Both the position numbers and the translations under genes were made by a program. DNA of 64,000 nt from Oscillospiraceae bacterium (lineage in GTDB: Bacteria; Bacillota; Clostridia; Oscillospirales; Ruminococcaceae), in NCBI GenBank assembly GCA_017415165.1, contig JAFQIY010000049.1, forward strand, positions 1-64,000, in the 5' to 3' direction. This document shows, in pieces, positions 8,133 through 58,753 of the stretch. The notes beneath the pieces are model-generated. The model searched no databases and was not told where the DNA came from. It saw only the letters and a list, made by a program, of their open reading frames with translations. Numbering within the stretch: position 1 is the first letter of the stretch; each line of letters starts with the position of its first letter.

Positions 8133-8160
8133 ACGAGGCATCGTCAGATGCCTCGTTTTT
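8133..8160 (+). terminator. Terminator of the Ig-like protein gene
   Basis: A 10-bp stem (acgaggcatc/gatgcctcgt) with a 4-nt loop is followed by five T. Confidence 0.9.
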
Positions 8161-8168
8161 GCAGCAAT

Positions 8169-8393
8169 AAAGCCTCCGATTTGTTCGGAGGCTTCAGTTT
8201 GTCGAAAAAGTCTTTTCGACAATGAATAGTGAATATTGAATAATGAAGAATGAATAATTAAGGAATTGCCTTCGGCAATAATATTAAAAATGTCCGCAAA
8301 GCGGACACCTTAACTATTCACTATTCATTATTCATTTTTCATTATCCTGTCGAGTTTATCGACAGGCAAAGCCTCCGATTTGTTCGGAGGCTT
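8169..8393. repeat. Palindromic element family A, copy 1, between duplicated hairpins
   Basis: A 173-bp core (8195-8367) begins with the hairpin tgtcgaaaa..tttcgaca and then has tandem tgaatantgaat-like repeats. Two hairpins follow (attgcc..ggcaat and tgtccg..cggaca). The core ends with reverse-complement ttcatt repeats and a second tgtcga..tcgaca hairpin. It is flanked by an identical 26-bp direct repeat (8169-8194 and 8368-8393, aaagcctccg..cggaggctt) that is itself a terminator-like hairpin. Related cores lie near 23.8 kb and 58.6 kb. Confidence 0.88.
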
Positions 8394-13870: not shown

Positions 13871-14042
13871 CAACCTTTCAAGGTTGCGGGGGTCTTGGGG
13901 GCAGAGCCCCTGAGTCGCCCTCCGCAGAGGGCGAAATACTTTTGCCTCAGAGGCGCTCCGCAAAGGTGAATTTTTCGGCGGCAAGCCGAAAAAGAGGAAC
14001 GCCCTGCAAGTGAGGGCGTTCCTAAAAGCAGCGAAGCTGCTT
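13871..14042. repeat. Array of seven consecutive hairpins
   Basis: Seven short perfect or near-perfect stem-loops lie end to end between the ABC exporter and the GH113-like gene: caacctt..aaggttg, ggggc..gcccc, cgccct..agggcg, a cctc..gagg stem enclosed by tttgc..gcaaa, tttttcggc..gccgaaaaa, gaacgccct..agggcgttc and aagcagc..gctgctt. No T run follows any of them. It could be a composite repetitive element or a structured RNA. I see no second copy in the window. Confidence 0.7.
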
Positions 14043-22968: not shown

Positions 22969-23703
22969 ATGCAGAAAATTTTAGGCTATATGCGTAAGGC
23001 CATTCAGGAGTTCGACCTTATTCAGGACGGTGACAGGATTGCTGTAGGCGTTTCGGGGGGCAAGGACAGCCTTGTGCTTCTTCGCGGACTGTTTTTGCTG
23101 AAACGCTTTATCGGTATCGAGTACGACATTGTTGCAATAACCCTTGACCCACGCTTCGGCGGCACGGACGGAGACTACTCCGCTGTGGACGAAATGTGCA
23201 GGGAAATGGGGATTGAGTATAAGCTTATCCGCACCCACATCGGTGAGATTGTGTTTGATGTGCGTCAGGAAAGCAACCCCTGCAGTCTTTGCGCACGAAT
23301 GAGACGAGGTGCACTTCACGACGCTGCAAAGGAAGCGGGCTGCAACAAAATCGCCCTCGGACATAACTACGAGGACGTGGTTGAAACTTTTATTATGAAC
23401 CTTTTCAACGAGGGCAGGCTTGGCTGTTTTGCGCCGAAAAGCTACCTTTCGAGGAAGGATATCACTATGATACGTCCGCTGGTGCTTGCGCCTGAAAAGG
23501 ATATACGCAGTGCCGCAAACCGCAGCAATCTCCAGGTTGTGAAATCAAAATGTCCCGCAGACGGACACACCTCCCGCGAGACAACGAAGCAGTTTCTTGC
23601 TGAGCGTGACAAGCTTGACAAGGGCTTCTCCGACCGTATTTTCGGGGCAATGCGCCGTGCAGGACTTGACGGCTGGGGCTACAAAGTGAATAATGAAGAA
23701 TGA
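22969..23703 (+). CDS. TtcA-like PP-loop tRNA thiolation protein
   Basis: The protein (244 aa) has the PP-loop ATP motif GVSGGKDSLVLL near residue 27 and the Cys pair CSLCARMRRGAL that matches E. coli TtcA. A third Cys in SKCPADG could complete a [4Fe-4S] site. TtcA thiolates cytidine 32 of tRNA; related proteins act on other positions. The gene is 25 bp after prfB, so it is probably in the same transcript. The last residues (VNNEE) and the stop are formed by the gtgaataatgaagaatga motif of repeat family A, so the native C-terminus may have been replaced. Confidence 0.85.
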   Translation: MQKILGYMRKAIQEFDLIQDGDRIAVGVSGGKDSLVLLRGLFLLKRFIGIEYDIVAITLDPRFGGTDGDYSAVDEMCREMGIEYKLIRTHIGEIVFDVRQESNPCSLCARMRRGALHDAAKEAGCNKIALGHNYEDVVETFIMNLFNEGRLGCFAPKSYLSRKDITMIRPLVLAPEKDIRSAANRSNLQVVKSKCPADGHTSRETTKQFLAERDKLDKGFSDRIFGAMRRAGLDGWGYKVNNEE

Positions 23704-23949
23704 ATAGTGAATAATGAATAAATAATAAGTCCGTCTTCGGCGGGTTAGCCTGCCGATAAACTCGACAGGCTAATGAAAAATGAAAAAAGAATAATGAATA
23801 GTGAATAGTTAAGGTGTCCGCTTTGCGGACATTTTTAATATCATTGCCGAAGGCAATTCCATAATTATTCATTCTTCATTATTCAATATTCACTATTCAT
23901 TGTCGAAAAGCCTTTTTCGACAATCTGGGGTCCGCCTTCGGCGGACTTT
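23686..23949. repeat. Palindromic element family A, copy 2 (inverted)
   Basis: The core (about 23746-23927) is the reverse complement of the copies at 8.2 and 58.6 kb, with hairpins cctgccgataaactcgacagg, tgtccg..cggaca, attgcc..ggcaat and tgtcgaaaa..tttttcgaca. Flanking it are two similar hairpins of about 18 bp (gtccgtcttcggcggg near 23729 and gtccgccttcggcggac near 23930). An extra run of gaataatgaa repeats lies to the left and forms the end of the TtcA-like gene. Confidence 0.85.
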
Positions 23950-58506: not shown

Positions 58507-58753
58507 AAAAGGACGTTTCCGCTATCAAATGGAAACGTCTTTCAGTTTGTCGAAAAAACTTTTCGACAATGAATAGTGAATATTGAATAATGAAGAATGA
58601 ATAATTAAGGAATTGCCTTCGGCAATAATATTAAAAATGTCCGCAAAGCGGACACCTTAACTATTCATTATTCTTTATTCATTTTTCATTAGCCTGTCGA
58701 TTTTATCGACAGGCTCAAGGGCGTTTCCGCTATCAAAGGGAAACGTCCTTTTC
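58507..58753. repeat. Palindromic element family A, copy 3, between duplicated hairpins
   Basis: The core (about 58543-58717) is nearly identical to the copy at 8195-8367: it has the tgtcga-hairpins at both ends, the tgaatantgaat repeats and the two central hairpins. The flanks are two related hairpins (gacgtttccgctatcaaatgg.. near 58512 and ggcgtttccgctatcaaaggg.. near 58720), each with stem cgtttcc/ggaaacg, differing by about three bases. They differ from the flanking hairpins of copy 1, so the duplication is specific to this site. Confidence 0.88.

Follow-up and report, generated by a model that had tools for sequence, protein, structure and literature searches.

A short repeated element with IS1182-like ends lies between duplicated copies of whole terminator-like hairpins

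Introduction

In a 64,000-nt stretch of DNA from an Oscillospiraceae bacterium (contig JAFQIY010000049.1; hereafter the window), a short conserved core occurs three times, each time between two hairpins that resemble each other. How does a hairpin come to stand on both sides of such a core and, if insertion copied it, what kind of enzyme would carry out that reaction? For DDE transposons, the usual description is a short target duplication whose length hardly varies, and reference tables list widely ranging repeat lengths for the IS1182 family.

That IS1182 members target palindromes (credited to Siguier et al. 2015 by PMC4923244 and PMC5678879) is already in print, as are IS1182-related MITEs and, in the form of a proposed possibility, the duplication of a whole stem-loop. 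According to the accessible text of Furi 2016 (PMC4923244) and Wan 2017 (PMC5678879), the IS1182-family elements IS1272 and TnSha1 target hairpins, often terminators, with no sequence consensus. The accessible part of the former describes partial deletion of the hairpin by both elements, with no duplication, and that of the latter proposes stem-loop replacement for IS1272 and notes that the entire stem-loop may be duplicated when joining occurs at its 5' foot (pathway b). IS1182 elements are also over-represented between convergent genes, as stated in the available text of PMC9208149. A search of the accessible literature found no MITE that duplicates whole terminators.

Results

Three copies of the core were located in the window: copy 1 at 8195–8367 (173 bp, forward strand), copy 2 at 23746–23927 (reverse strand, 92.8% identity to copy 1), and copy 3 at 58543–58716 (forward strand, 96.5% identity to copy 1). 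These are the three sites, one of them inverted, that an initial sequence-only reading of this DNA had picked out. Copy 1 is flanked by AAAGCCTCCGATTTGTTCGGAGGCTT, at 8169–8194 on the left and 8368–8393 on the right, and the 26-bp direct repeat claimed in that reading is indeed perfect; the native T-rich stretch follows directly after the right copy. Copy 3 lies between paired 34-bp hairpins at 58509–58542 and 58717–58750, which differ by three mismatches. The weakest case in the window is copy 2, whose flanking hairpins of the gtccg..cggac type (23729–23745 on one side and 23930–23946 on the other) are 17 bp long with three mismatches.

A separate terminator-like hairpin (aacgaggcatc..gatgcctcgttttt) was observed upstream of copy 1 at 8133–8159, so this gene end has a hairpin of its own besides the duplicated one, and a GAATAATGAAGAATGAATAG-type stretch resembling the element arms adjoins copy 2 at 23687–23728. 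Since no Rfam family matched the window at gathering score, a known structured RNA was rejected, and a tRNA-linked target site was rejected because the window contains no tRNA.

The element is short, non-coding and repeated, about 180 bp long with no gene, and its 29 near-complete copies range from 167 to 188 bp. It starts at the 5' end with C or T followed by AGTTTGTCGAAAAA, and its usual 3' end is TATCGACAGGCT followed by C or A. The predicted fold has a hairpin at each end, two small inner hairpins, and complementary AT-rich arms; for copy 1, the fold energy was −69 kcal/mol versus a mean of −28 kcal/mol for 100 shuffles (z about −10.5). On the forward strand of copy 1, the left-end hairpin, which includes the terminal repeat CAGTTTGTCGAAAAA, spans 8199–8222 (from the fold and pair counts in 29 copies). 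It is followed by the inner hairpins ATTGCCTTCGGCAAT at 8265–8279, paired in 29/29 copies, and TGTCCGCAAAGCGGACA at 8291–8307 (from the fold and copy comparison), and by the right-end hairpin CCTGTCGA..TCGACAGG at 8346–8366. The last was assigned from the fold, and its two stem sides are altered together in C11_198001 and C45_10746. The proposal that the core ends are hairpins thus agrees with the fold at both ends. Separately, the element interior (approximately positions 27–151) is present elsewhere with quite different ends, at L232–L235 (genomes G235 and G317) and L161–L175 (G184, the rumen MAG RUG14607), as if one palindromic interior, to judge from these sequences, served several element families.

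To what extent are the double hairpins general? In the host's own genome of 2.62 Mb, the core gave at least 54 matches at a threshold of at least 70 bits, a lower bound, since 40 of 72 candidates were scored and places from further searches were added. Fourteen of these 54 matches are halves of seven copies split by contig ends, which leaves about 47 loci. The flank set comprised the 43 loci whose left end is readable (36 single matches and seven assembled from contig ends); C33:129073, C35:77373, C36:2, and C41:97293, whose left ends are not readable, were left out. At 31 of the 43 loci, the element lies between gapless direct repeats of a complete hairpin, 17–40 bp long (median 26), and at four further loci (C18:64134, C33:25295, C33:29670, and C45:10746) a diverged hairpin with indels or many changes was recognized by eye on both sides. 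The hairpin sequence is another at each locus: flanks match within a locus and differ between loci, and no flank is shared by all copies. Together, the number of core matches and these flanks support what had been suggested from the window, namely a mobile miniature element that targets terminator-like hairpins and duplicates them whole.

Counted against whole-hairpin duplication are the eight of 43 loci without a matching second hairpin. In C11:216249, C33:2473, C33:35935, and C36:8314, the right end of the element is lost and the left side has a hairpin; only a left hairpin is present at C15:13181 and C43:19352, only a right one at C41:14330, and just a short palindrome on the right side at C45:79708. 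Where hairpin copies were compared at C33:25295, C72:82297, and C39:283686, they differ mostly in or near the loop, and both are still able to pair. Seven left and seven right contig ends were matched by hairpin (C4/C28, C7/C46, C61 start/C48 end, C51/C27, C54/C63, C11 end/C61 end, and C15 end/C43 start). The one pair of the seven that was checked, C51/C27, was confirmed in G011, a relative of the same genus, where the flanks are contiguous and overlap by 29 bases, corresponding to one hairpin.

The boundaries of the repeat coincide with those of the hairpin. When single sites were rebuilt, they had 10.2 contiguous outer pairs on average, with at least seven in 29 of 31 sites, and shifting the repeat interval by −1 or +1 base lowered the number to 0.45 or 1.4, respectively, in a test for which symmetry had helped choose the repeat boundaries. 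In a second test, element ends were fixed beforehand and repeat length was determined by identity alone, using the 32 loci with a recognized right end; a repeat was found in 28 of these, and 24 of the 28 had at least eight contiguous outer pairs. Window copy 1 is among the four that failed because its right end is 1–2 bases shorter than standard, and copy 2 falls outside the set of 32 because its right end is altered. With at least 54 matches in 2.62 Mb and 24/28 boundaries on paired bases, the hairpin repeats at the element exceed chance.

We also analyzed the gene context. A simple open-reading-frame caller placed 31 of the 33 sites behind one or more gene ends (15 convergent and 16 tandem, with the remaining two divergent), and the target hairpins, judged from their sequences, are probably intrinsic terminators. 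The earlier proposal that a terminator remains on each side of the insertion holds for the hairpin but not for the complete terminator. The upstream hairpin copy runs into the element end (CAGTTTGTCG...) and not into its own T-tract. Whichever way transcription runs, the native T-tract would thus remain with the distal copy alone. Insertion behind gene ends would do hardly any harm, and this would go some way toward explaining the high copy number. The element also offers an example of how, by landing behind genes, about 50 copies may be reached in a genome of 2.6 Mb.

A different account of the double hairpins is that two similar ones pre-existed as tandem terminators, and that the element inserted between them or was kept there by selection. 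Some loci do have different hairpins on each side (L162 in genome G183 and the IS1182 loci L219 and L247; see below), and the separate hairpin near copy 1 (8133–8159) also speaks for this account. Empty sites bear on it directly. In G011, of which 1.24 Mb of approximately 3.1 Mb was read, no match to the element core was found in the 1.24 Mb, and the hairpin was present once in 6/6 readable homologous sites; two hairpins, which would have contradicted duplication, were found at none. For the two-sided sites C30:68623, C43:40653, and C51/C27, the G011 flanks overlap by 25, 31, and 29 bases, while the hairpins in the own genome measure 26, 30, and 28 bp, respectively, so the overlaps equal one hairpin within a base. 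C15:13181 is also two-sided in G011 with one hairpin, and the filled site here likewise has one, on the left; no duplication is visible, and the site was counted against. The one-sided sites are C18:64134 and window copy 3, where one homologous hairpin stands at the orthologous G011 gene end and the downstream gene order differs. Most orthologous gene ends in G011 have a non-homologous terminator or a rearrangement, hence six informative sites, and for window copy 1 no clean empty site was found in G183, where longer aligned segments are too diverged (65–76%). Phage Javan90 and plasmid pUC77B, described below, also carry one hairpin, and within a locus the repeats agree in loop as well as stem, yet differ across loci. 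Given the single hairpins at empty sites, pre-existing tandem terminators were rejected as very improbable.

The sequence-only reading made no connection to IS1182, whose ends in this genus and family are of the type CAGnnTGTmGAAAAA. Set against 11 IS1182 ends, taken from the genus, the family, and a related plasmid, the element agrees in 12–15 of 16 bases at its left end and 11–14 of 16 at its right end. In a control, 12/16 matches to the left end occurred at 11 places on the two window strands taken together; matches at this level therefore also arise by chance, and the likeness of the ends counts through its position at the termini. The transposases of the proposed partners were above the NF033551 and Pfam DDE cut-offs in 3/3 cases, and in L094, L095, and L096 the insertion sequence lies between perfect whole-hairpin repeats of 29, 31, and 39 bp, respectively. 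In target type and in target repeat, the element resembles these three and others.

To describe IS1182 target habits more widely, we compiled 49 loci: 30 given as loci from a genome search in which 55 of 398 genomes matched, 12 from plasmids and phages (12 of 55 matches listed; 40 of 1,390 records listed), and seven from the genus and family. At 21 of the 49, the insertion sequence lies between whole-hairpin repeats of 18–39 bp; since L221 and L222, both within the 21, are near-identical phages with one insertion, these correspond to about 20 independent events. The named ones come from Bacilli or phages of Bacilli, from one clostridium, and from one fusobacterium. At the other 28 loci, counted against, the pattern was not seen, although only a minority of them gave a clear reading; in many the automatic end finder gave spurious end pairs, which were never counted as hairpin cases; for L227 and L264, the automatic boundaries were about one base off and were judged by eye. 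Among loci with the same end type but no matching pair, the two flanking hairpins differ at L219 and at L247, and at L240 a hairpin stands only to the left. In L070 and L217 the record end interrupts the locus, and L225 has a hairpin on the right only.

Natural pairs of filled and empty sites were available for these insertion sequences. Compared with phage Javan90, phage Javan87 has an extra 1,538-bp insertion sequence plus one 26-bp hairpin copy, the remainder being the same in 1,575/1,575 bases as compared by script. In the Lactococcus plasmid pUCCL626B, AAAGAACCTCTTGGTTCTTT stands on both sides of the insertion sequence, whereas pUC77B has AAAGAACCTCTTGGTTCTTT once and no insertion sequence. 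The comparison of YS387 with YS34-rum gave one hairpin, homology being confined to the downstream side. As a separate observation, L260 and L265 encode transposases matching the IS1182 model and have other ends (GAGACCACTGAAAA or similar) and 9-bp repeats, which suggests IS1182 subgroups with different target habits.

The IS1182 transposase model gave matches in 6/21 genomes of the genus (two above cut-off) and 38/148 of the family (five above cut-off). It had none in the own genome (93% complete); this was counted against the partnership, a resident IS1182 was rejected, and mobilization in trans is what we infer from the missing transposase. An enzyme of another family could instead move the element, such as an unrecognized IS5-like or single-strand HUH transposase, the shared ends being convergent. 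Such an enzyme would suit a genome without IS1182. It would also suit the finding that IS1182 proteins score with IS5 models too, and the hairpins at both element ends, which recall those of IS200/IS605. Insertion by IS200/IS605 does not, however, fit long target duplications; to our knowledge, neither these nor REP-type single-strand elements duplicate their target, and the element has long direct repeats. As the end sequence and the whole-hairpin repeats both recur at IS1182 elements, we regard a transposase of another family as unlikely. Taking its parts together, we consider it highly probable that the element is a non-autonomous MITE with IS1182-type ends, moved in trans by an IS1182-family transposase, with the whole hairpin copied on insertion.

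We then asked where else the element occurs. In G183, a goat-colon MAG (Oscillospiraceae RGIG2166), 19 copies or pieces were found with 83–94% identity to the element, while longer aligned genomic segments are merely 65–76% alike between the two genomes. A whole hairpin was present on both sides in 10 of 16 two-ended loci; two of these were joined from separate matches on the strength of their hairpins, and several containing indels were assessed by eye. The remaining six, counted against, are L162 with two different hairpins, L164 with a 12-bp half hairpin, L184 with a left hairpin only, and L168, L176, and L210 with repeats of 6, 4, and 9 bp, respectively, and no clear hairpin. L188 has the left side only. 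The 9-bp repeat of L210 (C27:17525–17690 of G183) reflects an insertion in an imperfect AATATGGTATACTATATT palindrome, located in a promoter-like stretch rather than at the end of a gene. Among 297 genomes of the bacterial family, with two candidates scored each, full-length matches were confined to the own genome, and two others had the interior alone. Similarly, a search of 41 relatives gave only partial matches outside the own genome, mainly to the AT-rich arms, and an exact 21-base element pattern had no match in viral_contigs.

Discussion

The element inserts at hairpins behind genes, it stands at most loci between two copies of the whole hairpin, and it has ends and habits in common with IS1182. 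We propose that an IS1182-family DDE transposase, acting in trans, would recognize the hairpin and join each 3' end of the element to the hairpin's 5' foot on one strand, after which gap filling or repair would copy the complete hairpin. The length of the duplication would then be set by the target (17–40 bp here) and not by a fixed enzyme spacing. Since the duplication is long, variable, and exact to the dyad, structure-guided target cutting is directly testable. The natural filled and empty sites illustrate the whole-stem-loop duplication put forward as a possibility in the accessible text of Wan 2017 (PMC5678879).

Does the transposase need an extruded hairpin? It might instead read a symmetric palindrome in duplex DNA, or be guided by transcription or RNA polymerase at terminators, with no hairpin or cruciform extruded. 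Our data establish a symmetric placement of the two cuts rather than a DNA shape, and 31/33 sites lie behind genes, both of which would agree with such a mechanism, although repeats of 17–40 bp with varied loops would be hard for a rigid symmetric complex to produce; we hold it to be possible but doubtful. Extending the IS1182 partnership further, we lean slightly toward a broader proposal taken as a whole: that a large group of IS1182 DDE elements, and the MITEs that borrow from them, read DNA shape and cut at both 5' feet of an extruded hairpin; that the target itself writes a duplication of about 17–40 bp; that terminators serve as sequence-independent safe landing sites; and that, where no hairpin is available, fallback duplications of 4–9 bp result.

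Members of the IS1182 family (NF033551) are autonomous, about 1.5–1.7 kb in length, and encode a DDE transposase, whereas the element is about 180 bp with no gene; alike are the terminal repeats, which are similar in relatives, and the whole-hairpin repeats seen at 21/49 IS1182 loci. IS1272 and TnSha1 are reported, in the accessible text cited above, to delete or replace the stem-loop without target duplication; the stem-loop is duplicated in 31/43 of the loci described here, unlike stem-loop replacement of the IS1272 type. In Methanosarcina acetivorans, MITEs of 160 and 169 bp, with 14 and 7 copies, respectively, have ISMac2 (IS1182) as partner; their direct repeats are 4 and 0 bp and the available portion of that paper makes no mention of hairpin duplication (PMC3852290), whereas our element duplicates the hairpin. 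ISPse1 of Paracoccus, also of the IS1182 family, resembles the element in its terminal repeats, which are 16 bp, and differs in its 4-bp direct repeat, as given in the accessible part of PMC3281130.

A practical use follows for assembly: matching hairpins can join contig ends broken at such repeats, as in the seven pairs found here, one of which was checked. The window also contains another repeat, at 13876–13972, with at least 10 stretches approximately 81–88% alike in G183, many of them at contig ends.
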